From Dehalococcoidales bacterium (lineage in GTDB: Bacteria > Chloroflexota > Dehalococcoidia > Dehalococcoidales > UBA2162), in contig JAFGCW010000039.1 in assembly GCA_016932435.1 (NCBI GenBank), forward strand, positions 1 through 38,099: a DNA stretch of 38,099 bases, given 5' to 3'. The first letter of the stretch is position 1; each line of letters starts with the position of its first letter. Below are positions 9,157 through 31,742 of the stretch, piece after piece. Under the pieces are notes generated by a model. It ran no database searches. It was given only the letters and a program-made list of their open reading frames with translations, and was not told the DNA's origin. The translations under genes were made by a program, and so were the position numbers.

Positions 9157-9185
9157 ATGACATTTTTCCGGGTCGCTGTTATAAT
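9157..9185 (+). promoter_or_regulatory. Sigma-70 promoter of dnaE
   Basis: ATGACA at 9157-9162 (one mismatch to TTGACA) is followed after exactly 17 bases by a perfect TATAAT at 9180-9185. A TGn extension immediately precedes the -10 hexamer. Transcription would start near 9192, leaving a leader of about 25 bases before the dnaE ATG at 9217. The intergenic stretch 8914-9156 shows nothing else I can name. Confidence 0.75.
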
Positions 9186-9216
9186 TATCCCATGCAAATT
9201 CTCGCCGCGAAGAACT

Positions 9217-15583: not shown

Positions 15584-16411
15584 ATGAATGATAGTAATGA
15601 TAATACCGGCAAAACAAATACGACCGGGCACAGGAAAAGACTTCGGGAGAAATTCATAAAGTCGGGTATCGCCGGATTCCATGATTACGAGATAATCGAA
15701 CTGCTGCTCAGCCTTGGAACGCCGCGCCGCGACTGCAAACAGCAGGCCAAGGAAGCTATCAGGAAATTCAAGACCCTGAGAGGAGTCCTCGAAGCCCCGA
15801 CTGAGGAATTACAAAAGATCAGTGGTATCGGATTTCATAATGCCTTTGGCATCAGGCTTGTCCAGGAAGTAGCCAGGGAGTTTCTCAAGGAAAGACTTAT
15901 CGAGAAGCCGGTATACACATCAGCTGATGAAGTATTCGACTACCTATACCACTCGATGCGTGATCTGAAGAAAGAGGTGTTCAAGGTAGTCTACCTTAAC
16001 AGCCAGAACCAGATAATCGAGACCGAAGACCTGTTTCACGGCACCGTCAACAGCAGCGCTGTTTCACCGCGTGAAGTAGTAGAGAGCACTCTGAAACACA
16101 ATGCTGTTTCCCTCATTTTCGCCCACAATCACCCTTCCGGCAATCCCGAACCGAGTAACAGTGATAAAGAACTAACCCGCGACCTTATTTACGCGGCGAA
16201 TACCGTCCAGGTAAAGGTGCTCGATCATATAATAATCGGGAATAACCGGTATTACAGCTTTGCCGGCCGCGGACTTATCGAAGAATATGAAATGGAATAC
16301 CATGGACTGAAATTGAGTGCAACTCATAAGGTGAGTCAGGATAAAAAACGTAGGAATATCTCTTCATCAGAACTTCCGTGGAGTGAACAGCCGGTTAACG
16401 ACTCCACCTGA
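15584..16411 (+). CDS. radC: RadC family JAMM-domain protein
   Basis: This 275-residue protein has the N-terminal helix-hairpin-helix region (residues ~12-80, with LRGVLEAPTEELQKISGIG). A JAB/MPN domain follows with the metal-site motif AHNHPSGNPEPSNSD (first His near residue 181) and a preceding catalytic Glu-containing strand. RadC's biochemical role remains unsettled despite its historical link to DNA repair. The product is longer than typical RadC (about 220) by a basic, polar tail. GTG-ATG at 15581 offers two starts, and TAGAAT at 15569-15574 lies so close that the transcript may be leaderless. Confidence 0.9.
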   Translation: MNDSNDNTGKTNTTGHRKRLREKFIKSGIAGFHDYEIIELLLSLGTPRRDCKQQAKEAIRKFKTLRGVLEAPTEELQKISGIGFHNAFGIRLVQEVAREFLKERLIEKPVYTSADEVFDYLYHSMRDLKKEVFKVVYLNSQNQIIETEDLFHGTVNSSAVSPREVVESTLKHNAVSLIFAHNHPSGNPEPSNSDKELTRDLIYAANTVQVKVLDHIIIGNNRYYSFAGRGLIEEYEMEYHGLKLSATHKVSQDKKRRNISSSELPWSEQPVNDST

Positions 16412-16478
16412 GAAATTCTTGTTTCTATGTAGTTAATTCATTCCCTTTGTTATTCTGAAGATTTCATTGACCGAAGCA

Positions 16479-17300
16479 CTATTGAAAATGTGATGATATC
16501 AGTTCAATATCTTCTTCTGAAAGTCGCCAGTTCGTCGCCTCAGCGTTCTGCTCCAGGTGTTTGGGATTGACTGCCTTTGGAATGGCAACCACATTATCAT
16601 AAGAAATAAGCCAGTTGATTGCTACCTGGGCGGCGGTTTTACCGTACTTTTCGCCTGTTTTCAATAAAAAGTCATCATTCACCAGCTTCCCTCTGGAAAG
16701 AGGCCAATAAGCCATTACCGTTACATTATTCTCTACACAGTAAGGTAGCGTCTCTTTTTCTATATCTCGGTCAAGCAGGCTATAAGGAAGCTGGTTCACG
16801 ATTATTTTATTATCTTTGAGACAGCTAATGGCTTCCTTCATCTGGTCGACATTAAAATTACTGACACCGATGAACTTTACCATTCTGCGCCCGACCAACC
16901 ACTCCATCGCTGACATTGTTTCCTTTAAAGGTACATCTGGATTAGGATGATGAACCAGGTATAAATCAAGGCAATCAATACCCAGTCTTCCCAGACTTCT
17001 TTCCGCAGCCTTGATAACTTCGTCATACTGTAAATGATCAGGCCATACCTTGGAGACAATGAACAGACTCTCACGGGAAAACGATCGTATAGCTTCACCA
17101 ACAAGTTCTTCGGCATGACCGTCAGCATACTTTTCAGCAGTATCGATGAGCGTCATACCCAGTTCGATACCTTTTTTTATTGCCTGGATACCTTCGCTGT
17201 CTTTCGATTTATCCGGTGTAAGGCCACCGCCGATTTCCCAGGTGCCGATACCTACTGCCGGTACTTCTATACCGGTGTTTCCGATTTTTTTATAATTCAT
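16479..17300 (-). CDS. Aldo/keto reductase (AKR5-like)
   Basis: This 273-residue NAD(P)H-dependent reductase shows the catalytic tetrad positions of the family: LIDTAEKYADG (Asp and Tyr), IVSKVW (Lys) and YLVHHPNPD (His). The C-terminal VAIPKAVNPKHLEQN is the cofactor-binding signature. A (beta/alpha)8 barrel and reduction of a carbonyl to an alcohol are expected. It is third in a minus-strand operon with an enolase-superfamily protein and a second aldo/keto reductase. The start has AGGAGG upstream and only 15 bases separate it from the preceding gene's stop, so co-translation is likely. The true substrate is probably a sugar acid or a related keto acid, by inference from the operon. Confidence 0.9.
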   Translation of the reverse strand: MNYKKIGNTGIEVPAVGIGTWEIGGGLTPDKSKDSEGIQAIKKGIELGMTLIDTAEKYADGHAEELVGEAIRSFSRESLFIVSKVWPDHLQYDEVIKAAERSLGRLGIDCLDLYLVHHPNPDVPLKETMSAMEWLVGRRMVKFIGVSNFNVDQMKEAISCLKDNKIIVNQLPYSLLDRDIEKETLPYCVENNVTVMAYWPLSRGKLVNDDFLLKTGEKYGKTAAQVAINWLISYDNVVAIPKAVNPKHLEQNAEATNWRLSEEDIELISSHFQ

Positions 17301-17315
17301 CCTCCCTCCTCCTTT

Positions 17316-18182
17316 TTATCTGCCTATTGCTTCCCTCGGAGATGAGATTGGTTGGTATTGCTTTACTTCATCCACAGCAGCGGTTTGTTCTTCTACTGTC
17401 ATCATTGTGAATCGTTCGGCTGCTTCAATCAGCATAGGCCACAGTTTTACATCACTCGACATAGGGCAGGTCGTCACGCCTTGACTGAGAGTGTAGGCTA
17501 AACTCCGGTCGATATCTGTCTGCACATCAAATGGCTCGTACCAGGTACTGTAAGGTCGGTCTTTTGAAGGCCATACACGCTTCGATATCGATTTAATTGC
17601 TAACATCCCGACATCTTTTTCTTTCGCCAGATCGAGTAATGGTCGGAAATCAATATCCGGATTAAAATGAGCGGCGTGTACTCTACTTAAGGGAAATAAT
17701 ACTGTATCGAAATCAAAGCGTTTTAATGCTTCAACGTACACATTAGGTCTATGCCCCGTGATTCCGATATATTTGAGAAGGCCCTGTTGTTTAGCCTCTA
17801 TCACAGCTTCCAGGGCACCCCCGGGATTCAGTATCGTGTCAAGGGTATCCAGGTCATCGACCCCGTGGAACTGAAAAAGGTCGAAACTGCTTACTTGAAG
17901 CCTGTCCAGGGATCGCTTTATGCTTTCCCAGGCTCCTGCCTTGTCTCGTTCTGTTGTCTTGCACCCAAGGAAGAAATCATTTCGATGTTTCGGCATCCAG
18001 GGGCCGATACGTAGTTCGGCATCACCATAGGTCGGGGCGACATCGATGTGGTTAATTCCATGTTCCATTACCATGGTTATTGCGGCATCAGCTTCATCCT
18101 GGGTAACCGTTCCCAGTGCCGCACCACCTAGAGTAAGAACACTGCTCATATGTCCGGTCTTGCCAAGACGTCTCTTTTCCAT
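17316..18182 (-). CDS. Aldo/keto reductase
   Basis: This 288-residue protein opens MEKRRLGKTGHMSSVLTLGG and has the tetrad motifs HIDVAPTYGDAE (Asp, Tyr), FFLGCKTTERD (Lys) and FDLFQFHGVDDLD (His). It thus belongs to the aldo/keto reductase superfamily but to a subfamily distinct from its downstream neighbour. AAGGAG precedes the ATG by 6 bases. It lies between the enolase-superfamily gene (44 bases upstream) and the second reductase (15 bases downstream). The physiological direction could be oxidation of an alcohol. Confidence 0.88.
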   Translation of the reverse strand: MEKRRLGKTGHMSSVLTLGGAALGTVTQDEADAAITMVMEHGINHIDVAPTYGDAELRIGPWMPKHRNDFFLGCKTTERDKAGAWESIKRSLDRLQVSSFDLFQFHGVDDLDTLDTILNPGGALEAVIEAKQQGLLKYIGITGHRPNVYVEALKRFDFDTVLFPLSRVHAAHFNPDIDFRPLLDLAKEKDVGMLAIKSISKRVWPSKDRPYSTWYEPFDVQTDIDRSLAYTLSQGVTTCPMSSDVKLWPMLIEAAERFTMMTVEEQTAAVDEVKQYQPISSPREAIGR

Positions 18183-18226
18183 AATTCACTCCTTTTATTC
18201 AGGTACTGAAGACAAGACTTATGTCC

Positions 18227-19402
18227 TTACCCTCCTATAGTAACCGGAGAAAGCCCCTTGCTGATGAATTTGGGAACAGCTTTTTCATTAAGTTCCAGCC
18301 CTATTCCCGGACCGTCGGGAGGATAGCAATATCCGTCTTTATATCCCAGCGGTTTTACCACGATATCCTCTCTTTCGAGTGAGCCGGTAGTATCGAAGGT
18401 ACCATGATAAAACATCGGGAAAAGATTGGCATGTGCCAGCCTTCCATACCATTCATCCGAAGCCAGCCACTGTGCCTGTGCGGCAGCTTCGAAAGGACCG
18501 TTCATGGATCCGCAGTACACGCCCAGGTTTGCGGCTTTGGCAATATAACCCCACTTTACGGCTTCAGAGATACCGCCGGCCCAGACGACCTTCGTACCTA
18601 CCATATCGCAGGCATCCTGCCTGATACACTCCACGAGGAAGGGAACTTTTACACTGGATTCATGGGCGCAAATGGGTATCGATTGAGAACTTCGAAGACG
18701 GGCCATACCCGCGATATCCCACCAGACAAGAGGTTGCTCGAATTTATACAGGTTGTATTTCTCCAACCGGCGACAATACTCTAATGCCGTCGTATAGTCC
18801 AGCGAACCATTCGCATCGATACAGAAATGAATATCTTCGTTATCGCCGATTGCCGCCCTTGTTTCTTTTACGTTTTCAATATCTTTGGAAAAACTGCTTC
18901 CCCAGCTCCCGCCTACTTTTAGGCAGAACGTCATGCAGCCATTTTCTACGGCTTTTACAGCTACGGCGGCTACTTCCTTAGCCGAAGGATTCCCGACATC
19001 GGAAATTACGTAGTCGACCTGTAACTTCTCAGAACGCTTACCACCAAGAAGCTGGTAAATAGGCTGGTTATGTGCCTTCCCTACTATGTCCCACAGAGCG
19101 AAGTCGATCAGAGCTACACAACCCGGGTAGGAGAGACCAACATTGGTATGAATAAACCTCTCCAGCCTGGCAAGAATTTTCTCTTTATCAAAAGGATCGG
19201 CACCGATAAGCATCGGTTCCCAGGTCTTGATGATAGACATCACCAGTTCCTGACCGCCACCTCCGGGATATTCACCTCCGTCCGCTATCCCGACTATACC
19301 TTCATCCGTATGCATCTTAATCAGGACCACATTATTCTGCCTGGTACTCGGAGCCGGACGAGGGAGACTAGCGGGTATCAGTTCGATCTTGGTTATTTTC
19401 AT
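18227..19402 (-). CDS. Enolase-superfamily enzyme (mandelate racemase/muconate lactonizing type)
   Basis: This 391-residue protein has an N-terminal capping domain and a C-terminal barrel. The metal ligands are seen at Asp196 (CIDANG), Glu222 (KFEQPL) and Glu248 (AHESS). Lys162 and Lys271 (GTKVVWAGG) sit where the acid/base pair of the muconate lactonizing group lies. The usual K-x-K of strand 2 has Cys in place of the first Lys. Such enzymes abstract a proton alpha to a carboxylate (dehydratase, racemase or cycloisomerase). I chose the start at 19402 because GGAGGAGAAG sits just upstream. It heads an operon with two aldo/keto reductases, so it may be a sugar-acid dehydratase. It has a close paralog at 34995-36146. 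Confidence 0.85.
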   Translation of the reverse strand: MKITKIELIPASLPRPAPSTRQNNVVLIKMHTDEGIVGIADGGEYPGGGGQELVMSIIKTWEPMLIGADPFDKEKILARLERFIHTNVGLSYPGCVALIDFALWDIVGKAHNQPIYQLLGGKRSEKLQVDYVISDVGNPSAKEVAAVAVKAVENGCMTFCLKVGGSWGSSFSKDIENVKETRAAIGDNEDIHFCIDANGSLDYTTALEYCRRLEKYNLYKFEQPLVWWDIAGMARLRSSQSIPICAHESSVKVPFLVECIRQDACDMVGTKVVWAGGISEAVKWGYIAKAANLGVYCGSMNGPFEAAAQAQWLASDEWYGRLAHANLFPMFYHGTFDTTGSLEREDIVVKPLGYKDGYCYPPDGPGIGLELNEKAVPKFISKGLSPVTIGG

Positions 19403-19631
19403 TCTCTTCTCCTCCATAAAAAATAATGGTGACACATCTTATCATTTTCGGGTATTTACGTAAACAAATTCTACTCAAGTAGCAAAATCACGGTAAATCT
19501 GTAGTTAGAGAAAGTGATGAAGAATCTTCTCTCGCTCCGAAACAAAGCTGTACTATACTGAGTAATACGTATAAACAGAACCAATATATATATAAAAGTG
19601 GGTTCGGTTCAGGTTATTTCAACTTGGTTTG

Positions 19632-20303
19632 TTATTCAAGTATGTCGCCGCTGACAAAGTCTATCTCGTTTAAAGGATAGATAATCCCCGAAGCGATATT
19701 ACTGATATGAGAATTGATCCGTTTGAAGTACCTTGACAGCATCGCAGTTACCACCGCTTCATTTGCCGATACTTCCTGTTCAAAAAGTTCATGCAATATC
19801 TTGTCGCAGTCGCGTTTTATAGGTGTATACTTCCTGAGTATTTCATTGGCAAGTTTTTCATCAGAATTTTTAAAGGCGTTCCTCAATACAGGGAAATTAT
19901 CCCCAATCTTTTTCTGAGTGGGAATAAGCCTGTTATAGAACTTGATATCTTTAATGGTCCCCTTGTACAATATCCCGGCTTCAAATATATTCTTGGAATA
20001 ATCTCCTATTCTCTCAGCATCTTTAATAAGACTCATTAGCACAAGACTTCCGGAGATATCACGTCTGGATTGGAAAGAAAGATGTTCGAAAAGTAGCCTG
20101 CGAATTTCTTTCTCCTGATTATTTACTTCTATATCCTTATTATAAAAATATTGCGGGATTTGATTGATATTCGCTTCTGTAGTAATGACTCTCCAGGCTT
20201 CGTTATATAGATATTCATCTGTGCTTATCATATCGAGAAATAGGTTGATAGACTTATTTATAAGCGGTGGACCCTGAAACATATTTAATATTCCTATATT
20301 CAT
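19632..20303 (-). CDS. PhoU-like phosphate-signalling protein
   Basis: This 223-residue all-helical protein has the PhoU pattern of heptad-rich bundles with SLIKDAERIGDYSKNIFEA (residues ~90-110), which matches the DNIERIGDHAxNI type of PhoU signature, here slightly altered. PhoU-like domains act with phosphate transporters. It starts 33 bases after the Na/Pi symporter gene ends on the same strand, with AGGGGT as ribosome binding site, which supports a functional pair. It is a free-standing PhoU rather than a fused cytoplasmic tail. The 180-base gap before it (19436-19631) shows nothing I can name. Confidence 0.8.
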   Translation of the reverse strand: MNIGILNMFQGPPLINKSINLFLDMISTDEYLYNEAWRVITTEANINQIPQYFYNKDIEVNNQEKEIRRLLFEHLSFQSRRDISGSLVLMSLIKDAERIGDYSKNIFEAGILYKGTIKDIKFYNRLIPTQKKIGDNFPVLRNAFKNSDEKLANEILRKYTPIKRDCDKILHELFEQEVSANEAVVTAMLSRYFKRINSHISNIASGIIYPLNEIDFVSGDILE

Positions 20304-20336
20304 AGCATACCCCTAGACTGTTACAGATACTCGTTG

Positions 20337-21473
20337 TTATCTTGTCAGAAATATCAGTCCCAACGGAACCAGATAAAACCCGCATATACAAAAAATAACC
20401 GCCAAAATTTTTGACTCGGATGCGAGTTCTCCGAACTTCGTTGCGCAATAGATAGGTATTTTTCGTAATGGTAAAAATATTATTATACCATATATATTGA
20501 ACACAAGGTGAGATAAAGCGACAGTCAGACCGATAGTACCGACCACGACTCCTGAGTCAGCACTTAGCGTAACGAGAGATGCCAGAAGAGCAGTAATAGT
20601 AGTTCCTATATTGGCACCCAGCGTAAATGGGTATGCCCGGTTCAGATCAAGGAAACCAGCTGCAACCATTCCCACCACCATTGAAACGGTTACCGCACTA
20701 CTCTGGACTGCAGCTGTCAATAACATACCGAGTGTAAATGCTGTAAAGGTATTTCTGAAGAGGAATCTGTCCAGTACTTTCTCTGTCGTATTCACAACAA
20801 GAGATCGCATTATTTTTACAAGATATACCAGGGAAAAAACAACGATCAGTATGGCTATTATCAGTAGTATTATACCGGCTGGAATATCTGCTACCCCGAA
20901 CGTATCCAGCAGAAGATTTTGGAAGAATTTCGTTGTCGGTTCAATGATAAATTTTACGGGGCTGGTAAAAGCAATCCCTCCAACGTTTTGAAATATTTCC
21001 GTCAGGAATAGTGCTGATTTTTCGATAATATGAAAGAAAATTTCCAGAGGGAAAAACACAAGGATAGTAAACACATTGAAAAAGTCATGCATCGTTGCAG
21101 CCGTAAAAGCTCGCTTAAAGTCTTCTTTCCTGGTAACAAACGTAAACGATACCAATAGACTGGTAATCGTTGAACCCATATTTGCACCGATTACCATGGG
21201 AATGGCTGATTCTAGAGGAAGTACGCCACTGCCAGCCAGTCCGACAATGAGAGAAGTAGTCGCAGATGAGCTTTGAACAAGACTTGTAACCAGGATGCCT
21301 GTAAAAAGACCGCAAAAAGGATTTGAGTAGAAACTTACGAGTTGTTCGGCAAAACCACTTCCAAAGAGTCCGAAAGAAATACTTATAAATTTTATACCGA
21401 CAAGGAATATATATAATAAAGGGAAGATTAAAATGATTTTAACGGAACGATGATGTTTCAGGCTAACAGACAA
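20337..21473 (-). CDS. Na/Pi cotransporter family protein
   Basis: This protein of about 378 residues has the inverted repeats of the PF02690 family. The first half carries QSSSATTSLIVGLAGSG, then GANMGSTIT, and the second half carries QSSAVTVSMVVGMVAAG, then GANIGTTIT. These QSS motifs form the Na+/phosphate binding site. Around ten hydrophobic segments are expected. Its PhoU-like partner follows. The frame also allows a TTG at 21491, but a TATACT box (21494-21499) abuts that codon. The TTG at 21473 has GGAGAAGG 5 bases before it, so I prefer 21473. Confidence 0.88.
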   Translation of the reverse strand: MSVSLKHHRSVKIILIFPLLYIFLVGIKFISISFGLFGSGFAEQLVSFYSNPFCGLFTGILVTSLVQSSSATTSLIVGLAGSGVLPLESAIPMVIGANMGSTITSLLVSFTFVTRKEDFKRAFTAATMHDFFNVFTILVFFPLEIFFHIIEKSALFLTEIFQNVGGIAFTSPVKFIIEPTTKFFQNLLLDTFGVADIPAGIILLIIAILIVVFSLVYLVKIMRSLVVNTTEKVLDRFLFRNTFTAFTLGMLLTAAVQSSAVTVSMVVGMVAAGFLDLNRAYPFTLGANIGTTITALLASLVTLSADSGVVVGTIGLTVALSHLVFNIYGIIIFLPLRKIPIYCATKFGELASESKILAVIFCICGFYLVPLGLIFLTR

Positions 21474-21541
21474 CCGAGCCTTCTCCGCCAAATAGTATAA
21501 AAATAGACATATGGAAGTATTGTAGTAATTAAAGGAGAGTT

Positions 21542-21637
21542 ATGCAAGTTATCACTAGTGTACTAATATTGATTTATTTAGCTGGTCTTTACTACTATGA
21601 CTACCTTATATTTGATTCTATATTTAGTAATCTCTGA
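21542..21637 (+). CDS. Predicted 31-residue single-pass membrane peptide
   Basis: The ATG at 21542 is preceded by a near-perfect ribosome binding site, AAAGGAGAG, 3-5 bases upstream. The frame encodes 31 residues, starting MQVITSVLILIYLAGLYYYD and ending with a TGA at 21635. Residues 3-24 form a continuous hydrophobic helix rich in aromatic residues, so it would be a membrane peptide. It is divergent from the Na/Pi symporter gene 69 bases away. No homologue is recognised; small membrane proteins of this size often accompany transporters (KdpF is an example), but no role can be assigned. Confidence 0.5.
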   Translation: MQVITSVLILIYLAGLYYYDYLIFDSIFSNL

Positions 21638-21772
21638 CGCTAGAGAGTTCATGGTATTGTGACTTGGACTAGACTCGGACTCCGTCTGAAACGATGGTAT
21701 GTTTTACTGAATCATACACAAAAAAGATGGGTAAATACTCGCTGCATACATTATTTCTAACCGTGGCGTAAA

Positions 21773-21890
21773 ATTAACCTGTGAATACCTGAGTCTCTTC
21801 AAGTGTCACAACGGTAAGAGTTGAAAGAATCAGGCACGGTCTTTATAGTAGTAAAATAAACAGGTTAATCGATAAAAGAAGGAGTTAACC
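21773..21890 (+). promoter_or_regulatory. Switch-like structured leader of the C_GCAxxG_C_C gene
   Basis: ATTAACCTGT (21773-21782) is perfectly complementary to ACAGGTTAAT (21860-21869), closing a domain that holds inner arms CCTGA/TCAGG (21788-21792 with 21830-21834) and CTCTT/AAGAG (21795-21799 with 21816-21820). The same GGTTAA (21863-21868) can instead pair with TTAACC at 21885-21890, directly before the start codon, leaving the ribosome binding site GAAGGAG (21878-21884) in the loop. ACCGTG (21760-21765) can also pair with CACGGT (21835-21840). This is the plan of a translational riboswitch, but I recognise no known class. Confidence 0.4.
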
Positions 21891-21891
21891 C

Positions 21892-22392
21892 ATGTCCAGT
21901 GACATTGCACAGAAAGCCTATAACCTCGGGAAAGAATATGAAAAGACTTATAAAGGCTGCAGTCAATGTGTAGTCGCGGCTTTGCAGGATGCTTTTAACA
22001 TGCCAAACGACGATGTTTTCAAAGCAGCGACAGGTTTAGCTGCCGGTTGCGGTGCATCTACCGATGGTAACTGTGGAGCGTACTCGGGCGGGATTATGTT
22101 TTTAAGTATGCTTAGCGGCAGAGAAAGAGATGATTTCAAGGACCCTTCAGGTAAAGTGTTTGTAAATTTTCAGCTGGTGAATAAATTGCGTGAAATGTTT
22201 ATCCGGGAGTACGGATCGGTAATATGTCGAAATATACAGACGAAAATATTCGGCAGACCTTACTACCTTGTTGATCCTGACGAGTTTGAAAAATTTGAAA
22301 AAGCCGGCGCTCATGAAATTCACTGTCTGGAAGTAGTAGGGAAAGGAGCCAGATGGACTGCCGATCTGATTATTACGGAAGGCTTGGTGTAA
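21892..22392 (+). CDS. C_GCAxxG_C_C family protein
   Basis: This 166-residue protein matches the family named for its conserved residues: GCSQCVVAAL at residues ~24-33, AAGCGASTDGNCGAYSGG in the middle, GSVICRNIQ, and HCLEVVGKGARWTADLI at the C-terminus. The spaced cysteines could bind a metal or iron-sulfur cluster, or act in redox chemistry, in anaerobes; its function is not established. GAAGGAG lies about 7 bases before the ATG. The gene faces the isochorismatase operon tail-to-tail with 7 bases between stops. A possible regulatory RNA precedes it. Confidence 0.88.
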   Translation: MSSDIAQKAYNLGKEYEKTYKGCSQCVVAALQDAFNMPNDDVFKAATGLAAGCGASTDGNCGAYSGGIMFLSMLSGRERDDFKDPSGKVFVNFQLVNKLREMFIREYGSVICRNIQTKIFGRPYYLVDPDEFEKFEKAGAHEIHCLEVVGKGARWTADLIITEGLV

Positions 22393-22399
22393 ACCATTT

Positions 22400-23068
22400 T
22401 CAGATCTTCAGGGCTTTTAGCACTTGATCGCTGGTCGTTACCCAACCAAAGATTTCTTTAATGTTATCTATACTGGATTGCTGACGGGTAGGATCGGAAG
22501 CCGCGCATGCATCGGAAACAAGGACAGGCAGATACTGAAGCTGACTGGCTTCCCGTAATGAAGTCTCGACGCAAATGTTGGTAGCTACCCCGGTAAAGAT
22601 CAGATATCTTATATCATAAGTCCTTAACATCATGTCCAGTTCGGTTCCGGAGAAGGCGCCAAACCTGCGTTTTACTATTACTATCTCGTCTTCGCGTGGC
22701 TTCAGTTCATCGATGATCTCAGTTCCCCAGGTACCCTCCAGTATCGAACCATTACGGACTTCAGGATTTTTCAACCTTTCAGGAGTTAAGCTGAACCGTG
22801 ACATGGGTCCAATTTCTTTCATATCCGCGGTAATCCTGTGAACAGCATAGATAACTTTAATACCTCTATCCCTCGCAACCCTGATGATATTCCGGTTTGG
22901 TACTATTGTTTTAGCGATGTATTCCATGTCTTTACCCGAAAGATCGAACATGCCGCCTTTATTCACGAAAGCGTTTTGCATGTCGATAACCAGGACAGCA
23001 GTTCTTTGCAGGTCTATCTCTATCGGTTCCGGTTCAGCCTGGATGACAACCTTCAACTTATCTCCCAT
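22400..23068 (-). CDS. Isochorismatase-like cysteine hydrolase
   Basis: This 222-residue protein has the family's triad: Asp29 in VLVIDMQNAF, the Lys in IVKRRFGAFSG and the Cys in FTGVATNICVETSLREA. Members hydrolyse amides, N-carbamoyl groups or the vinyl ether of isochorismate. I chose the ATG at 23068 (MGDKLKVV) because AAGGAA lies about 7 bases upstream, whereas the ATG at 23083 has no ribosome binding site. It is last in a minus-strand operon with VOC, UGSC selenoprotein and SRPBCC genes, and may cleave an intermediate made by them. Confidence 0.87.
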   Translation of the reverse strand: MGDKLKVVIQAEPEPIEIDLQRTAVLVIDMQNAFVNKGGMFDLSGKDMEYIAKTIVPNRNIIRVARDRGIKVIYAVHRITADMKEIGPMSRFSLTPERLKNPEVRNGSILEGTWGTEIIDELKPREDEIVIVKRRFGAFSGTELDMMLRTYDIRYLIFTGVATNICVETSLREASQLQYLPVLVSDACAASDPTRQQSSIDNIKEIFGWVTTSDQVLKALKI

Positions 23069-23620: not shown

Positions 23621-25369
23621 TCAACGCCAGACATCTACGCCATATGCAGGATCCGCATTGGGAGTCCGGCCATTGACCCAGTGCGATGTCTCTTCACCGC
23701 CGCCGGAAACGATTATGCAGTTCTGATATGGATCGTCTACAGCCGGCACCATGTAATCATCCGGCAACTCTTTCCAGGGCTTGCCGGACAGTTTTTCTAC
23801 TCCCCGCCAGCCGCCCGTCCGGAAATCGGGCGAGGCGTGTTTCCTGTACTCGCTGAACGGCATGAAACTGGACTTATAAAGCCACTGATAAACCTCATCC
23901 TTGGACTTGAAACCGGCTTCATAGAGGTGCTGCGCCATCTCGGGGAGAATAATGAAATTGTAACCACCTTCCTTGCCTGCCCATAAAGACGGTACCTGGT
24001 ACTCCAGCCAGTTATGTCCGCCGGGAATCCCTTCTACACCAAGGCGTTTTGCCATACCGCCGCTGCCGCTTTTTTGAAGCGTCCGGTACCTGCCGGGACT
24101 GAACTCGGTGCTGCTGAAGGTTAATGAACCGGGAGGTCCTCCCCTCATACCCAGTACATACACAATGCTTTCATCCTTCTTGAAATCGTACTCTTCATTC
24201 ACACCTTTCCATCCCGGCGGGAGAGCATCGATATTCTCCGGAAAGCAGTTAAAAAGAGGATTACCCATGATACCGCAGCTGGTAACCTTCGGGATATTCC
24301 CTCCCAGGTTTATCCACATAAGTTCGGCAGCGCGACCGATACTCCGGTTGGCTTGATTGCCCGGTCCCAGCATGCCGACATCGAAGTTCATTCCTATCTC
24401 TTTGGCGATAGGGCCACTCACACAGAATCCCAGGCTGCCGCGCCCGTCACCTCCACCACCTCCTGCTTCGGCAATCGCCAGCAGTACCGGCATATATTCC
24501 GGTCTGCACCCCGCCATTACACCGTTGATTGCTACCTTTTCAACGGTAGCGGTGCGTTTCATAGGTTCGAAGCGAACCGGTGTACCTTTCTTACCTCCTA
24601 CTCCCATCTCTCTCGGTGTATGGTCGGACTGAAGCGTTATCACTTCATCCGGCTTATGGCTGGTGCCCTTCAGCATTGCCTTCACCCTCTCCTCGGTAGG
24701 TATCCTTATCGCCATGCCGTCCGTATAAAGAGAAATCCAGGCATCCCCGAGTACGGGGACGCTTACTGCGCGTTCATAGAATACTTCGGCTTCATCCAGA
24801 GTTCCCTCAAAAAGGACTCTCTTATCAGGTACCTCCCACCTGCCGCCTTCCTGTTCTTCCGCCGTCGGTGGTCTTACCAGGGCATCCATCAACGGTTTAA
24901 TGATCTGGGTCGCGTCTTCAACTCCGTTCGCTATACGCGAGCAGTATACTGTTCGAACGTGGGGGATACCGAGAAGCAGAGCTCCCTGCTTAAGGCATTC
25001 ATTCTGGTCTTCGAATACAATAACGACAGTCGGTTTTCCTGCTTTTTCAAATCTCTCCGCAAAGGGCAACTGCCCTTTTATCGCACCGTGTCAGAAGGCC
25101 ACTCCCTGTATCAGAGCATCGGAAGCATTGAATTCCTCATCAGGTATCGGTGGGCCTGACTCCCTGAAGATCCAGGTAACCTTGGGGTAATTATCCCTCA
25201 GTATCTTCTCCAGGGGTGTGAGAAATTCCTGTTCGACATTGACCATCATATTGAACATGATTGTTTTTCCATCAAGCCGGTCAAGGCGGGGCGCCAGCGG
25301 ATACAGGTCGACCGGGTCCTGGATTCCGACCGGGTTCAAACATTTGTATATCCTGTCCTTCGTTGTCAT
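23621..25369 (-). CDS. UGSC-family selenoprotein (in-frame UGA read as Sec at residue 93)
   Basis: The frame runs from ATG 25369 (AAGGAG upstream) to a TGA at 25091-25093 and continues without shift to 23621. It yields 582 residues if the TGA is read as selenocysteine. Residues ~30-180 match the UGSC domain. SDALIQGVAF precedes the TGA, and HGAIKGQLPFAERFEKAG and KPTVVI follow, lining up with the family pattern DAVVxGVGD-U-GSC...HDAxELEKxG-PTVVI at the same spacing. Here the family's GSC is replaced by HGA, so the resolving Cys is missing. Residues ~190-582 form a larger domain with Gly-rich loops (AIAEAGGGGGDGRGSLGF) and CxxC-poor chemistry that I cannot name. A hairpin just 3' of the TGA looks like a SECIS. 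Sec presumably sits at the active site. The alternative is a disrupted gene. Confidence 0.82.
25061..25078 (-). promoter_or_regulatory. Predicted bacterial SECIS hairpin
   Basis: On the mRNA strand, immediately downstream of the in-frame UGA at 25091-25093, AAAGGGC and GCCCUUU form a perfect 7-bp stem capped by AGUU. The loop lies about 20 bases after the UGA. A GU in a small apical loop at this distance is the known arrangement of the SelB-binding hairpin of E. coli fdhF. A lower helix UGC/GCG below a four-base bulge is also possible. All of this lies inside the coding sequence. Confidence 0.72.
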
Positions 25370-25418: not shown

Positions 25419-25871
25419 TTACTTCTTTCTCCCACCGAGTTCGGTAATCATACCACCAACTTTATCAGTATCGAAGTATGCCCACTTAACCCCTTCGATG
25501 CCCCCGGTCTGTATGACGTTGAAGCCAGCCTGCTCCATCTCTGCGATTTCCTTATCGATGTCTTCAACGTTATAGCACACGTGATGAATCCCTTCGCCTT
25601 TTTCTTCGAGGAACTCATCGTATATCGATCTGCCCTTTAAAGGTTGTATTAATTCTATATCCAGTCCGCCCATTCCCCCCCTGCACATTCTCAGGTCCAT
25701 GTCGTAGTCGGAAGCTTCACCATGGACGGTTCGTTCTGTTAACGGCATTCCTTCAGGGCCGCCAATCATAGGCGGGAAAGGCCCGACTCCTAGAGACTCG
25801 AAGTGTTTTATCGCTTTATCCATGTCCTTGACTACAAGGCAAACGTGACCGAATTTCCAGTCTGATTGCAT
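25419..25871 (-). CDS. VOC-family (glyoxalase/methylmalonyl-CoA epimerase-like) protein
   Basis: This 150-residue protein has two beta-alpha-beta-beta-beta modules: FGHVCLVVKDMDKAIKHFES (residues ~7-26, His ligand) and GIHHVCYNVEDIDKEIAEME (His ligand, second half), with ELIQPLKG carrying a metal Glu. This layout fits a methylmalonyl-CoA epimerase-like or glyoxalase-like metal enzyme, but members vary widely. AGGAGGT is an ideal ribosome binding site. It heads the minus-strand operon, 50 bases before the selenoprotein gene. Confidence 0.85.
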   Translation of the reverse strand: MQSDWKFGHVCLVVKDMDKAIKHFESLGVGPFPPMIGGPEGMPLTERTVHGEASDYDMDLRMCRGGMGGLDIELIQPLKGRSIYDEFLEEKGEGIHHVCYNVEDIDKEIAEMEQAGFNVIQTGGIEGVKWAYFDTDKVGGMITELGGRKK

Positions 25872-26285: not shown

Positions 26286-27668
26286 GTGACAACTGAAAAA
26301 AATGTTATAGGACCAAGTGCCGAAAGACCTCTGAACAGACTCAAGACAATGTATGAATTACGGGCATATGTCGATTCGATGTATGAAGGCGGACGGGAAG
26401 CTGAAGACGAAGGAAGACCGGTAGCCTGGTGCATGCTTTCCATTCCCACGCAAATACTGACCGCAATGGGTATCGAGGCTGTTTTTCCGGAGAATTACGG
26501 CACTATATGCGCATCGGCGGGGGCTGCCGCACCATTTCTAGACCGTGCCGAGTCCGAAGGTTTTCCGAGTCATATGTGCGGCTACTGCCGCAATGGACTC
26601 GGCTATGCTGCCAGAATGGCAGACCTGGATGGGAAAATACCACCGGAAGCGCCCGGAGGCGGAATGAGTAAACCTACGTTACTGGTAGGTTCGGGAGCAG
26701 TCTGTGACGCACGGTACAAGTTCTTCCAGGCTCTCGGGCGTTACCTGGATGTTCCCGTATATATAATAGAAGCTCCTGCAGCCGGGCAAAGAGAGTCTTT
26801 GAAGGAAGGTGCCTACGAACGTACCGTACAGTTTCTTATCGAGGAATATAAGCAATTTGTTGCCTTTCTTGAAAAATTCCTCGGAAAGAAAATGGACTGG
26901 GATAAGATAGGTGAGACTCAGAGCACCCAGGAACTGGACAAGGTTTGGTGGGATATCAACCAGCTTCGCAGGGAACGACCGTGTCCTATGAATTCCAGGG
27001 ACTTCTGGAGTTCAATGTCAGGCGTTCTTTACAAAGCCGGAGATACCGATGAAATGACCATTTTATACAAGAAAATGTATGAAGAGGTAAAGGACAGGGT
27101 AGACAGGAAGATTGCCGGGATTAACAGGGAAGAAAAATACAGGCTGACATTCCAGGGACTCCCGCCCTGGCACAGCCTGGGATTTTTCGACCAGTTAGCG
27201 GACAGGGGCTGGAATTTTGTACACGAAAGCAGCTATCATCCTGCCAGGCCGGTGGATATCGATGTGAGTCAAATCAACGATCCTATGGAGCGTTACGTAC
27301 GATCAAATTCAAGAAGCCTGGCGTCAATCATAGATCGCGATTTCGAACCGGAGGAAGCAGCCGAAATAAAAGCAGAGATAATACAGCATGGCTATTCACA
27401 CCGCCTGGCGGCGAAGAACGTCAGAGAGTTCCGGTGTGACGGCGCTTTTCTCCACCCGATGCTTACCTGTCGTGCCTTTACCGCACCTCTCTTCCTTTAC
27501 CAGAAACAAATAATGGACGTGTACAAGGTACCTTCACTCATCCTTGAAGGAGATATCGTCGACCTGACTCTCTTCGATCCTGTCGCGGGTCTTAAGAAGG
27601 CAGAAGCGTTCGAGGAAATCATGGACTATTATAAAGAAGTCAGGAAAAAAGAGGGGCTGGAATGGTAG
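26286..27668 (+). CDS. 2-hydroxyacyl-CoA dehydratase family subunit (HgdB/BcrB-like)
   Basis: This 460-residue protein belongs to PF06050. Cysteines likely to ligate the FeS cluster occur in GTICASAGAA, MCGYCRNGLG and HPMLTCRAF. The C-terminal LILEGDIVDLTLFDP and the following helix are typical of the family. Partners are the subunit encoded 30 bases downstream and the two activases after that. Such pairs either dehydrate 2-hydroxyacyl-CoA via ketyl radicals or, with two ASKHA subunits, reduce aromatic CoA thioesters. The reading frame begins at GTG, with GGGAG about 10 bases upstream. Confidence 0.85.
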   Translation: MTTEKNVIGPSAERPLNRLKTMYELRAYVDSMYEGGREAEDEGRPVAWCMLSIPTQILTAMGIEAVFPENYGTICASAGAAAPFLDRAESEGFPSHMCGYCRNGLGYAARMADLDGKIPPEAPGGGMSKPTLLVGSGAVCDARYKFFQALGRYLDVPVYIIEAPAAGQRESLKEGAYERTVQFLIEEYKQFVAFLEKFLGKKMDWDKIGETQSTQELDKVWWDINQLRRERPCPMNSRDFWSSMSGVLYKAGDTDEMTILYKKMYEEVKDRVDRKIAGINREEKYRLTFQGLPPWHSLGFFDQLADRGWNFVHESSYHPARPVDIDVSQINDPMERYVRSNSRSLASIIDRDFEPEEAAEIKAEIIQHGYSHRLAAKNVREFRCDGAFLHPMLTCRAFTAPLFLYQKQIMDVYKVPSLILEGDIVDLTLFDPVAGLKKAEAFEEIMDYYKEVRKKEGLEW

Positions 27669-27698
27669 AAAACCGGAGATAATTAAAGGGAGTGTTCA

Positions 27699-28871
27699 AT
27701 GGCCCGAGTAACAGACACAGGATTGAGTAGAGTTAAAGAGATCTGCCTGAACAGGTCTCAAAGAGTAAAAGAACTGAAGGAAGAAGGAAAACCGGTAATC
27801 GGATATCTCTGTATTTATCCGGTCCTGGAGATGATAACAGCCTTCGATATGATCCCTTACCGGATATTCGGGGATATGGATGAACCGATTACCGATGCGG
27901 ATGATTATATGCCTGCAATCGTGTGCCCCTTTCTTCGCAGTATCCTGGACCTGGGACTGAAAGGCAGATATGATTTTCTGGATGGAGTAGTAATGGCACA
28001 TATCTGTGATGTCGGCGCCAGGACAGCTCATTTATGGGATGTCGCTGTAAAGACGCCGTATTCCCACTTCATTGACATACCTCATACCAACCGTGAAAAT
28101 TCACAGGAGCGACTTAAGGAATTGCTGGTTGATTTTCAACAATCCCTCGAATCCTTTACCGGAAGGGAAATGTCCGTTGATAAACTGAGAGAATCCATAG
28201 AAAAACATAATGAGCAGCGAAAACTGGTGCGGGAACTGTACAACCTGAAAAAGCCGGATCCACCCCTGATATCAGGTACGGAGACTCTCCAGGTAATGAA
28301 GGCATTGATGAGTCTTCCCGTTGATGAAGGAAACGCTTTATTGCAGGAAGTATTGACCGAGATAAGAAAACGCAAAAATCCAGTACCGGAGAAACCAGCC
28401 AGGCTGCTGGTCTGGGGTCCGGTGATCGACGATGTGGCTTTTATCGAGATGATAGAAAGCCTTGATGCCAGTGTAGTCATGGATGATACCTGTGTGGGCA
28501 GTCGGGTCTTCTTTCCCGATGTTCCCCTCACTGATGATCCTCTGGACGGACTGGCATATCACTACCTGGAGAACCTTAAATGTCCCCGTACATTGCGCGA
28601 CTCAAATGTGAACGGTACTACGATAGGCTATAACGCCGACCTGGAAACAAGATTCGGCTATATCGGCGATTTTGCCGGAGAATGGAATGTCAACGGAGTG
28701 ATCCTCCAGGCTTTACGATATTGTGACAGCCATGGCTACGAAGTACCCCAGATTAAGGATTATCTTGATAGTATAGGATTACCGAATATATACATTGAGC
28801 ATGATTACAGCAAGGCCGCTCTCGGTCCCTTAATGACCAGAATTCAGGCCTTTACCGAGATTATTGGCTAG
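27699..28871 (+). CDS. 2-hydroxyacyl-CoA dehydratase family subunit (HgdB/BcrC-like)
   Basis: This 390-residue protein shares the fold of its upstream neighbour. GYLCIYPVLEMITAFDMIPY, AIVCPFLRSILD, MAHICDVGARTAHLW and DDTCVGSRVFFPD carry the likely cluster cysteines. It is shorter than the first subunit, as expected for the smaller of a heterodimeric pair such as BcrC/BcrB or HgdA/HgdB. GGGAG 6 bases before the ATG drives translation. The catalytic cluster, and possibly an aromatic or hydroxyacyl-CoA substrate, would be held between the two subunits. The order dehydratase pair, activase, activase matches the bcrCBAD type of cluster. Confidence 0.85.
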   Translation: MARVTDTGLSRVKEICLNRSQRVKELKEEGKPVIGYLCIYPVLEMITAFDMIPYRIFGDMDEPITDADDYMPAIVCPFLRSILDLGLKGRYDFLDGVVMAHICDVGARTAHLWDVAVKTPYSHFIDIPHTNRENSQERLKELLVDFQQSLESFTGREMSVDKLRESIEKHNEQRKLVRELYNLKKPDPPLISGTETLQVMKALMSLPVDEGNALLQEVLTEIRKRKNPVPEKPARLLVWGPVIDDVAFIEMIESLDASVVMDDTCVGSRVFFPDVPLTDDPLDGLAYHYLENLKCPRTLRDSNVNGTTIGYNADLETRFGYIGDFAGEWNVNGVILQALRYCDSHGYEVPQIKDYLDSIGLPNIYIEHDYSKAALGPLMTRIQAFTEIIG

Positions 28872-28892
28872 AGCCGGAAGAGAGGGAGAGTT

Positions 28893-29747
28893 ATTCACTA
28901 TTTTGCCGGGATCGACTTAGGTTCTACCATGACCAAATTAGTGGTTATTGATGAAGAAGAGAAGATCCGTGCCAGCGTAATACGTCATACCGGGGCTGAG
29001 CACCGGCGCTTAGCCAACCAGGTAATGGAGGACGCACTCGAGCAGGCCGGGCTGGCTATCGATGAAATAACATACGTGATAGCAACAGGTTACGGGAGGA
29101 TCAATGTCCCCTTTGCCGACCGTCAGATTACGGAGCTTACCTGTCACACCAGGGGTGTATCGCATATTTTACCAACAGTCAGACTGGCTATCGATATCGG
29201 CGGACAGGATTCCAAGGGTTTAAAGATAAAAGACGGAAAACTGACCGATTTTGTGATGAATGACAGGTGCGCGGCAGGTACCGGCAGGTTCCTGGAGGTG
29301 TTTTCTTCTACCCTCGGTCTCAAAATAGAAGACCTGGGAGATATATCCTTAAAATCGACTCATAAAGTCTCCATCAGCAGTACCTGCACAATTTTTGCCC
29401 GGCAGGAAGTAATAGCACATATATCCGCAGGAGCACCGATAGAAGATATTGTCGCCGGACTCCATGACGCGGTGGCAGGTCGAGTATCCAGGATGGTACA
29501 AAAATTAAAGGTAGAGCCGGATATAGTATTCACCGGGGGAGTAGCGAAAAACGCCGGTGTTGTCAGGGCGCTGGAAGAAAACCTGGGATATAAGGTTTTC
29601 GTTCCTGAAGAACCGTTACTAACCGGTGCGGCGGGGGCGGCTCTACTGGCTAAAGATTTAACCGTGAAAGCGCTGGCTGAAGGTAAACCTGTCAGGACTG
29701 GAAAGAGACAACTGGGAGAAGCCACTTTTTTTTATGAGGGAAGGTAA
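28893..29747 (+). CDS. Acyl-CoA dehydratase/BCR activase (ASKHA ATPase), likely AUU start
   Basis: This 284-residue protein activates its dehydratase by ATP-driven electron transfer from a homodimer 4Fe-4S centre. The phosphate-binding motif FAGIDLGSTMTKLVV, the GGQDSK motif in LAIDIGGQDSKGLKI, and the cluster ligands in NDRCAAGTG and SSTCTIFARQE are all intact. The N-terminal residues before the first ATG (28929) are clearly conserved, but no ATG, GTG or TTG lies in frame behind the stop at 28869. The sole good start is ATT at 28893, 4 bases after GGGAG. A mutated or misread start codon is the alternative. AUU would give low expression, fitting an activase that is needed in small amounts. 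Confidence 0.8.
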   Translation: MHYFAGIDLGSTMTKLVVIDEEEKIRASVIRHTGAEHRRLANQVMEDALEQAGLAIDEITYVIATGYGRINVPFADRQITELTCHTRGVSHILPTVRLAIDIGGQDSKGLKIKDGKLTDFVMNDRCAAGTGRFLEVFSSTLGLKIEDLGDISLKSTHKVSISSTCTIFARQEVIAHISAGAPIEDIVAGLHDAVAGRVSRMVQKLKVEPDIVFTGGVAKNAGVVRALEENLGYKVFVPEEPLLTGAAGAALLAKDLTVKALAEGKPVRTGKRQLGEATFFYEGR

Positions 29748-29748
29748 A

Positions 29749-30534
29749 ATGACCTCGTTTATGGGCATCGATATAGGCTCGTGTACCAGTAAAGGTGTTA
29801 TTACTGAAAACGGAACACTTTCTGTTTATCATATTCTGCAATCCGGCATTAACTACAGGCAGGCAGCCCAAACGTTAAGGGACGAACTCCTGAAGAAGGC
29901 GAACCTTACACAGGAGGAAATAACCGCTACGGTAACGACAGGGCATGGCGGTGACGATATTCCTTTCGGTGACCGGCAGATAGCGGATATGCGTTGCTGT
30001 GCCAGAGGAATAAACCGCATCTTCCCGGCAGTGAGGACGGTTATTGATGTCCAGGCACAATTCACCCAGATAATCAAAATCAGCGAAAAAGGCCAGGTAG
30101 TCAATTTCGTGGTCAGTGAAAAATGTGCAGCCGGAAGCGGCAGCTTTCTTGATATCGTTGCAAATGTCCTCCAGATAGAACTCGATGAAGTAGGTCCCCT
30201 GTCACTCAAATCCGAAAGTCCCGTCGCCTTTACCACCGGATGCGCCGTTTTCGGCGAATCGGAAGCTGTCTCGAGAGTGGCCGAAGGTGCATTAAAGGAA
30301 GATATTCTGGCCGGTATCCACAAGGCGCTGGCTGAAAAGATATCATCCCTTGTTGACAGAGTCGGCATGGAGGAACAGTGTGTTATCAGTGGCGGCGGCG
30401 GTCTGAATATCGGGCTGATAAGCAAGATCCAGGAAAGTCTTGGGATCTCTTTACTGGTACCTCCGCAGCCCCAGATTGTAAACGCCTACGGTGCGGCGAT
30501 AATAGCCGAAGAAGAATTTAACAAAGGAGGATGA
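29749..30534 (+). CDS. Second ASKHA activase-like subunit (degenerate nucleotide site)
   Basis: This 261-residue protein begins MTSFMGIDIGSCTSKGVI, keeping the first phosphate motif, and keeps the cluster cysteines in SEKCAAGSGSF and TTGCAVFGESEAVS. However, the GGQDSK signature of the first activase is replaced by DVQAQFTQIIKI, so the second nucleotide-binding element is degenerate. ATP hydrolysis may be weakened or replaced by a structural role, like the paired, unequal ASKHA subunits of benzoyl-CoA reductases. AAGG lies just before ATG 29749, one base after the preceding stop. Confidence 0.8.
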   Translation: MTSFMGIDIGSCTSKGVITENGTLSVYHILQSGINYRQAAQTLRDELLKKANLTQEEITATVTTGHGGDDIPFGDRQIADMRCCARGINRIFPAVRTVIDVQAQFTQIIKISEKGQVVNFVVSEKCAAGSGSFLDIVANVLQIELDEVGPLSLKSESPVAFTTGCAVFGESEAVSRVAEGALKEDILAGIHKALAEKISSLVDRVGMEEQCVISGGGGLNIGLISKIQESLGISLLVPPQPQIVNAYGAAIIAEEEFNKGG

Positions 30535-30539
30535 TGAAC

Positions 30540-31742
30540 ATGTCAGGCATCCTTGAAGGTATAAAAGTACTGTCCATGGGACAGATTGTAGCCATACCGG
30601 CGGCAAGTTCAACCATGGCTGACTGGGGAGCTGATGTTATCAAACTCGAAGCTCTAACCGGCGAAATGCACCGGGGACTGAAAAGAGCCCAGAGTATCGA
30701 TACCGGTAAAATCAACTGGGTTATGCAGGTGTTGAACCGCAATAAGCGAGCAATGGCAATAGACCTGACTAAGGAGTCGGCTAGAGAGATAGTCTACAAA
30801 CTGATCGAGAAAACGGACGTTTTCATGTCCAACTATAAACGTAGCTCGGTAAAAAACCTGAAACTGGACTATGATACTCTTCGGAAGATAAATCCCGGGC
30901 TTATCTACGCATTCGTAAGCGGTTACGGAGCAATGGGACCGGATAGAGATGAAAGAGGCTATGATTTCACAGCAGGATGGGCCCGTTCGGGGATGATGCA
31001 CCTGATAGGTGAACCGGGCACTCCTCCGGCACCTCAGCGTGTCGGTATGATAGACAGCATGGCCGGAGCTCAAATTGTCAGCGGTGTCTGCGCTGCCCTC
31101 CTGAACAGGGAAAAGACGGGTAAAGGCCAGGAAGTAGAAGTTTCCCTGTATCATACTGCCGTATGGAGCCTTGCCGTGGATATACAGGGTGCCCTCGGAG
31201 GCAATGAACCTGTCAAACATGATCGCGCCAAAGCGCAGAACCCGGTATGGAACAGCTACCGTACAAAGGACAACCGGTGGTTCTGGCTGGCGATGCTTCA
31301 GCCTGATCCCGCCTGGCCCGGATTCTGCAAGGCAATAGAAAGACCGGAACTGGAAAACGATCCGCGTTTCTGCGACATGGAGACTCGCAAGGATAATTGT
31401 GAAGCACTGATACAAATTATCGATGAAGTCCTTGCTACCAGGACCATGGCTGAATGGGAACAGCGATTCAGGGAGAACAACTGCATATACGGGCGAGTGC
31501 AGACTCCCATGGAAGTTATCGCCGACCCGCAAGCTCAGGCAAACGATTTCTATGTCGATGTCGAACACCCTAATGCCGGACCTATCAAACTGCTTTCAAC
31601 ACCGGTAAAATTCAGCGACAATCCAGCTTCTATACGCGCTACCTGCCCCGAACTCGGCCAGCACAACGAAGAGATTATCCTTGAACTGGGATACACCTGG
31701 AACGACATCGCACAGTTAAAAGAACAGGGCGTTATTCTGTAA
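30540..31742 (+). CDS. Family III CoA-transferase (CaiB/BaiF)
   Basis: This 400-residue protein begins MSGILEGIKVLSMGQIVAIP and has LADWGADVIKLE-like (MADWGADVIKLEAL), the CaiB signature. The catalytic Asp is Asp172 in GMIDSMAGAQ, in line with Asp169 of formyl-CoA transferase. It moves CoA between a carboxylic acid and an acyl-CoA without ATP. AAGGAGG lies 9 bases before ATG 30540, so I prefer that to the two ATGs at 30531 and 30534. As the last gene of the dehydratase operon, it would load the acid substrate with CoA. Confidence 0.92.
   Translation: MSGILEGIKVLSMGQIVAIPAASSTMADWGADVIKLEALTGEMHRGLKRAQSIDTGKINWVMQVLNRNKRAMAIDLTKESAREIVYKLIEKTDVFMSNYKRSSVKNLKLDYDTLRKINPGLIYAFVSGYGAMGPDRDERGYDFTAGWARSGMMHLIGEPGTPPAPQRVGMIDSMAGAQIVSGVCAALLNREKTGKGQEVEVSLYHTAVWSLAVDIQGALGGNEPVKHDRAKAQNPVWNSYRTKDNRWFWLAMLQPDPAWPGFCKAIERPELENDPRFCDMETRKDNCEALIQIIDEVLATRTMAEWEQRFRENNCIYGRVQTPMEVIADPQAQANDFYVDVEHPNAGPIKLLSTPVKFSDNPASIRATCPELGQHNEEIILELGYTWNDIAQLKEQGVIL

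Follow-up and report, generated by a model that had tools for sequence, protein, structure and literature searches.

Two gene pieces separated by an in-frame UGA in a Dehalococcoidales bacterium are one two-domain, UGSC-type selenoprotein with a probable reductive catabolic role

Does the UGA codon that separates two open reading frames on the minus strand of this locus end a gene, or does it encode a selenocysteine (Sec) within one? The window, i.e., the whole 38,099-nucleotide stretch that was analysed, carries here a frame that opens with an ATG at 25369, runs for 92 codons to a TGA at 25093-25091 and continues for 489 codons to a second TGA at 23623-23621. An earlier note on this DNA had described two open frames in one frame, separated only by the first TGA, and this is confirmed, with no frameshift, insertion or deletion required to join them; it was also right that ordinary ORF calling splits the gene into a 92-aa and a 482-aa piece. 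The features concerned are the following.

23621..25369, minus strand: selenoprotein gene of 582 residues with Sec at residue 93; ordinary annotation cuts the gene at the UGA
25091..25093, minus strand: in-frame UGA (Sec codon, residue 93), in the same aligned column in 54/54 close family members; Cys in the homologue P0012
25375..25380, minus strand: Shine-Dalgarno-like AAGGAG that precedes the ATG and ends 5 nt upstream of it

Three frames in the window can be read through a TGA with at least 70 codons before it and at least 120 after it, the present gene included; the other two lie antisense to a 1191-aa ORF at 9157-12732. UGA is an ordinary stop in the genome of the window, since it terminates seven of the 22 window genes checked, the selenoprotein gene among them. 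No tRNA genes were found in the window.

The close-family set comprises 54 members that cover the site, drawn from three genomes (G001, G003 and G004) and the window, of which 52 are full-length at 45-100% identity (window included) and two are partial. All of them carry exactly one in-frame TGA, in the same aligned column and with no other inside the match. Outside the fetched set were fragments lacking the site, along with a piece from G003 with an internal TAA; the latter (G003:C33:32363-32659) is a fragment of a relative that matches query residues 4-100 and is perhaps a decayed copy. Synteny links the window to contig G001:C65 (loci L001 and L079) of a Dehalococcoidia MAG, isolate W403. 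The nucleotide identity of the long blocks is 80-88%, and the orthologue in L079 shares 93% protein identity and keeps the UGA. Against this orthologue, dN/dS amounts to 0.053 for the whole gene, 0.088 before the UGA (codons 1-92) and 0.046 after it (codons 94-582), and both parts are under purifying selection.

The earlier note had suggested looking for homologues with Cys at the Sec position and for other homologous genes that contain the UGA. Both exist: the close members above, the window included, account for the latter, while the former is represented by P0012, a continuous full-length homologue of 56% identity with Cys at the Sec site. In a protein search with the window protein, which gave 1522 hits, 119 of the 120 listed have a length of 419-503 aa, and so were called from after the UGA. 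A search with the N-terminal part alone returned two hits and missed P0012; since both hits are 482-aa pieces, it gave no independent Cys forms. Viral contigs yielded 308 pattern stretches and no relatives.

A real stop at this UGA, with 92-aa and 482-aa proteins made separately, or a pseudogene, would be in keeping with the use of UGA as a terminator of other genes in the window, with the presence of the 482-aa form in databases and with an AAGGG run that ends 3 nt ahead of the TTG start of the 482-aa ORF. This run is all that precedes the TTG, and it doubles as part of a hairpin stem. We nevertheless consider such a stop very improbable, given that the UGA, with no second in-frame TGA, is found in each of the 54 close members that extend over the site, that selection is purifying on both sides of it, that P0012 is continuous and that the sister genome G001 has Sec genes. 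Even less credible, to the point of being negligible, is an altered code in which UGA is decoded as Trp or another amino acid. Beyond the open frame nothing speaks for it; other genes of the window use UGA as a normal stop, those of the 116 aligned rows with a residue in this column that lack the UGA show Cys, Ser or Leu and never Trp, and a tRNA-Sec with a UCA anticodon is found in four of five genomes. We conclude from the sequence that the two apparent pieces of a broken gene are one real, mis-annotated selenoprotein gene. The earlier proposal of a UGSC-like selenoprotein read through its UGA is thus supported by the Cys homologue, by the invariant UGA and by the Sec machinery of the sister genome.

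In G001, this machinery consists of a tRNA-Sec that scores 68.2 bits (cut-off 47) with the anticodon UCA, SelA and SelB on one contig, both over their cut-offs, and SelD, also over its cut-off. The SelD gene (L052, G001:C145) itself has one in-frame TGA. Among 14 control genomes, the same cut-offs were passed by five for tRNA-Sec, two for SelB, one for SelA and two for SelD. The four further genomes considered here (G003, G004, G039 and G040) all have SelB over cut-off, and three of them have a tRNA-Sec over cut-off with the anticodon UCA; in G039, none of the 150 candidates scored (of 734) passed as tRNA-Sec and the best candidate is a tRNA-Ser. G004 has two tRNA-Sec matches of equal score, 75.3 bits (L187; G004:C84:15909-16000). 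The genes that the earlier note had named as a check on Sec decoding are therefore all present in the sister genome, from which close relative we infer the machinery of the window's own organism.

Downstream of the UGA lies a possible signal for this decoding.

25061..25078, minus strand: candidate bacterial SECIS hairpin with a 7-bp stem, AAAGGGC/GCCCTTT, and the loop AGTT

The loop is 23-26 nt from the U of the UGA, and its letters at this site are AGTT in 52 of the 54 close genes and AGGC in two. Folding was assessed in a set of 74 genes (54 close and 20 distant), four without a UGA having been dropped. For the segment at nt 10-42 from the UGA, it lay below the mean of synonymously recoded controls in 48/54 close and 19/20 distant genes, against 13/54 and 8/20 for a control segment at nt 28-66. 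In 45/54 close and 17/20 distant genes, an apical loop with a G among its first three letters lies 15-38 nt from the UGA, a count without a chance control. In 51/54 close genes, nt 19 is paired with nt 30, a third codon position (A-T 30, G-C 18, G-T 3). On the tree, nt 19 differs in five independent pairs; in these, nt 30 changes the same way in a mean of 4.6 and in the opposite sense in 0.0. Conversely, eight pairs differ at nt 30, and nt 19 changes the same way in five of them and shows no difference in three. In both directions, this covariation has a median p of 0.0625. No consensus structure emerged from RNAalifold for the 54 close segments, which are free of gaps, stem pairs filled 244/324 cells in register 0 and nearly as many (235/324) when the partner was slid by -3, and Rfam gave no match in the window.

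To which family does the joined protein belong? Its N-terminal part carries the Sec.

24845..25369, minus strand: N-terminal Sec domain (residues 1-175), UGSC-homologous, with a Rossmann-like α/β model

Against Pfam UGSC, whose curated cut-off is 25 bits, the joined translation falls slightly short with a score of 22.6 bits over residues 11-143. The 92-aa piece on its own reaches 11.7 bits (E 0.29), and the 482-aa piece has no Pfam match at E up to 1. In an alignment (A1) of 27 rows, made up of 26 relatives and P0012, all 27 rows were matched at E up to 5 by PF24696 (best 1e-41) and 26 by NF041046, the window protein being the single unmatched row. When the clade of the window protein, termed UxxA, was compared with distant UGSC-type rows by hhalign, a probability of 100 was obtained (E 4e-44, 176 columns). 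This upholds the homology that the earlier note had drawn from the residues around the TGA, which were said to follow the UGSC pattern with the TGA at U, and places the Sec in the same column.

In the model of the Sec domain, the Sec would lie just ahead of helix 94-109, and the best structural matches of the model are Rossmann-like. The Trx-like fold guessed at in 2008 may still apply, although the predicted fold is Rossmann-like and Trx is absent among the structural matches listed. Matches to Dsb proteins were discounted: the best PDB sequence match, a Dsb protein (residues 24-136, E 0.25), is too weak to be of use, as is a match of DsbE to one of the 27 A1 rows (E 0.18).

A more distant relationship leads to the reductases of amino acid catabolism. 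With hhalign, the whole UGSC set aligned to PrdB-like proteins at 91% over 49 columns with the Sec columns aligned, and the distant UGSC rows alone gave 88.8%, the UxxA clade alone only 38%, and 21 controls at most 1.6%. TIGR04483 matched three of the 27 A1 rows at E up to 5 (best 0.0033), and GrdH and GrdF matched one row each (E 0.034 and 0.18, respectively); the window protein itself has no PrdB/GrdB-family profile match at E up to 1. We regard the Sec domain as remotely homologous to PrdB of D-proline reductase, a kinship that falls short of a family-level profile match and that looks new. In the phylum, 57 of 251 genomes also encode PrdB-like proteins, none of which passes the PrdB cut-off (L137-L156), and the 20 that were read have mostly UPLC, UPMC or UGLC-type motifs, and some have Cys.

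The larger part of the protein follows the Sec domain.

23624..24838, minus strand: C-terminal domain (residues 178-582), of no named family; a separate gene elsewhere

This domain has a confident model, but no solved structural counterpart was found for it. In 15 stretches of G039 (about 254 kb), picked as rich in hits, 42 fused Sec domains were found together with ten ORFs that contain only the N-terminal part and 11 that contain only the C-terminal part. For nine of the ten N-only ORFs, the same strand carries a C-only ORF at a distance of 36-307 bp, from which it follows that both parts probably act together; the remaining one is short and lies where its stretch ends. The earlier note had seen in the fusion a probable new selenoprotein architecture, which does not hold: fused forms are common in the genomes searched, and the available part of the 2008 GOS survey by Zhang and Gladyshev reports UGSC fused to a conserved domain, 'Unknown_1' (PMC2398784). 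In that account, too, a UGSC domain is joined to a conserved domain of unknown function, which may or may not correspond to the present C-terminal domain. The fused architecture is therefore not new as such. What looks new is a C-terminal domain for which no solved counterpart was found and which can also stand alone as a gene next to short UGSC genes.

The motif itself sets the window protein apart. After the U, the close family has [HSPT][GNQD][AT], and of the 52 aligned UxxA members, 51 carry Ala at +3 and one carries Thr. Since the second Cys at +3 is missing, the window protein is filed with a UxxA sister clade of the UGSC family and not as a canonical member; HGA in place of GSC after the U, correctly noticed before, marks this whole clade and is not a single oddity. 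The fetched stretches contain 78 relatives, of which 75 entered the tree after three short pieces were dropped. The 53 UxxA rows form one starred branch with a support of 100, adjoined by two UWGA proteins (97), and UxxC and Sec-less forms lie elsewhere in a tree whose long branches, the program warns, may join falsely. A thiol in the C-terminal domain is of interest here.

24506..24508, minus strand: Cys288 of the MAGC motif, candidate partner thiol of Sec93

Cys288 is present in 52/52 aligned UxxA members, in both UWGA proteins and in P0012. Position 288 is Cys in three, Ala in 12 and Gly in two of 17 distant UxxC rows, and Ala in four and Cys in one of five rows without Sec or Cys at the site. 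It is also Cys in 37 of the 38 UxxC fused rows of G039, so that the presence of Cys288 is not tied to the loss of the +3 Cys; nor is its count in the UxxA clade independent, because the clade is one lineage. The pattern fits a partner thiol in the C-terminal domain without proving it. On contig G001:C41 (L095:5983-11442), tandem Sec-less UGSC-type paralogues carry LDTN and, twice, SGAA in place of the motif, and all have Ala at 288.

The number of such genes varies widely between genomes. The window protein finds 40 matches in G001, of which 17 are full-length and contain a single TGA, 16 in G003 and 25 in G004, while eight of the 12 genomes of that family that were searched have none. Across the class, six of 294 genomes match at E up to 1e-30, with at most four candidates scored per genome. 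PF24696 matches number 46 in G040 and 150 in G039 (150 of its 208 candidates scored), both of the same class, and nearly all those listed have one TGA, two having none and three having two. G039 is a 5.0-Mb genome of this class (loci L158-L185 in part, L195-L209). In some relatives, the number of such genes, which databases list as fragments, thus appears to range from dozens to more than a hundred per genome. In the tree, members of G001, G003 and G004 interleave, with 10 to 13 label changes each, yet are more clustered than in shuffles; the radiation is therefore old, with later duplication.

Might these copy numbers come from mixed bins and not from real expansions? The genomes are drafts in many contigs with no stated quality, G039 has the tRNA-Sec result given above, and the 2026 review, in its available part, raises co-assembly for its own record MAG (PMC13188914). 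We think mixing doubtful as an explanation, since within each genome all pairs of the compared rows stay at or below 90% identity (32 rows in G001, where the highest is 89%, 12 in G003, 23 in G004 and 39 in G039), which speaks against strain mixing; in addition, several members share one contig, and the members of three genomes interleave. Taking the expansion as real, its scale appears new: 150 UGSC-domain matches in one genome compare with a largest bacterial selenoproteome of 63, that of a Methylomirabilota MAG, in the accessible part of the review (PMC13188914). The text of that review makes no mention of Chloroflexota, Chloroflexi or Dehalococcoid, and the available parts of PMC13188914, PMC9312934 and PMC2398784 contain no description of this expansion. 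Nor was it apparent from the listings of openly accessible papers on UGSC or on selenoproteins of Dehalococcoidia, Chloroflexota, SAR202 and Methylomirabilota.

The neighbourhood of the gene bears on what its product may do.

25419..25871, minus strand: glyoxalase/VOC family gene (PF13669), directly upstream, in a block that is also alignable in L079
23125..23565, minus strand: SRPBCC/Polyketide_cyc2 gene, downstream
26286..31742, plus strand: divergent catabolic cluster with two HGD-D dehydratase-type subunits, two BcrAD ATPases and a class III CoA-transferase

URO-D, SDR and CoA-transferase genes recur near members of the family. In G004, which has 35 SBP_bac_5 matches in all, a gene for an SBP_bac_5 solute-binding lipoprotein lies directly upstream on the same strand in 14 of 23 close members (L099-L115); this arrangement is seen in none of 18 close members in G001, in none of 12 in G003 and not in the window. 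From such catabolic and transport neighbours, it follows that the protein may be a catabolic enzyme whose copies differ in substrate. Elsewhere in the window, positions 16396-22429 have no alignable match in the sister contig L079 and hold ORFs that by appearance resemble aldo-keto reductases and an enolase-superfamily gene; a second enolase-superfamily gene, at 34995-36146, is MR_MLE. At the window edge, an ORF at 3-341 is similar in pattern to a small transposase subunit.

While comparison shows the unity of the gene, its family, the pairing of its domains and, through a close relative, its Sec decoding, its function is a matter of interpretation. In our judgement, the gene probably encodes a two-domain selenoenzyme, a UGSC-homologous Sec domain with its partner domain, that has a reductive catabolic role, and the protein is probably cytosolic. 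We tentatively propose the following mechanism. The C-terminal domain would bind a catabolic substrate, and the Sec selenolate at the start of the helix could attack the substrate or a leaving group and so bring about a reductive cleavage, modelled on that of the Sec subunits of D-proline and glycine reductase. The selenium adduct would then be resolved by a thiol, possibly the +3 Cys in UxxC relatives and, in the UxxA clade, either Cys288 of the C-terminal domain or an external thiol. Duplication of the Sec domain and C-terminal domain pair could have given rise to enzymes for many substrates.

A thiol or peroxide oxidoreductase, with a protective redox role in place of catabolic C-X cleavage, is an unlikely but serious competitor. 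Most selenoprotein families of the GOS survey, in its available part, are homologues of thiol oxidoreductases or Trx-like (PMC2398784), the UxxC relatives retain a second Cys, and the best PDB match of the profile, at a non-significant E of 0.25, is the Dsb protein mentioned above. The UxxA clade, in contrast, has Ala or Thr at +3, and the predicted Sec domain finds its best structural matches among Rossmann-like folds, with Trx folds still possible. Moreover, a large C-terminal domain, dozens of diverged paralogues per genome and catabolic and transport neighbours suit substrate diversity better than protection. The kinship with PrdB and GrdB and the loss of the +3 Cys together favour nucleophilic reductive cleavage by Sec over dithiol exchange, and a reductive catabolic role is the one that we retain.

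A bolder reading, which we find possible but on balance do not quite favour, is that a Sec domain akin to PrdB and GrdB and a C-terminal domain of new fold, fused or adjacent, make up a new class of reductive catabolic selenoenzyme. This class would represent the largest expansion of a single selenoprotein family known, in Dehalococcoidia with more than 100 Sec genes in one bacterium, and in one clade the partner thiol would have moved from the Sec motif to the C-terminal domain. As the family is listed in databases mostly as post-UGA pieces, a large enzyme family of uncultured Dehalococcoidia is easily missed. Should these copy numbers prove right, a single genome of this kind surpasses the maximum that the 2026 review gives for a bacterial selenoproteome (63), and selenium may be central to the metabolism of these bacteria. 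The fused and separate forms of the pair and the link to PrdB render the chemistry testable, and the scale of the family, its unmatched C-terminal domain and that same link deserve the attention of specialists.

Compared with known systems, the protein displays a mixture of shared and distinct features. With the UGSC family (PF24696/NF041046) it shares a homologous Sec domain and the column of the Sec, whereas it differs in being UxxA and not UxxC, in scoring below the Pfam cut-off and in its fusion to a C-terminal domain of ~400 residues. The active site of formate dehydrogenase FdhF is U-H-G, and the same letters occur in the motif of the window protein; we take this as coincidence, because the His is not kept in the UxxA clade, where the residue after U is H in 24, S in 24, P in three and T in one of 52 members. 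A further parallel is with PrdB and GrdB, the Sec subunits of D-proline and glycine reductase, which have a pyruvoyl subunit as partner. Here as there, the proteins are remotely homologous at the Sec site and the Sec part would work with a partner, which is pyruvoyl-bearing in their case and in ours a C-terminal domain of no named family. Absent from the UxxA clade of the window protein, the UxxC motif that PrdB and GrdB carry, according to the available part of the 2026 review (PMC13188914), is found again in its UGSC relatives.
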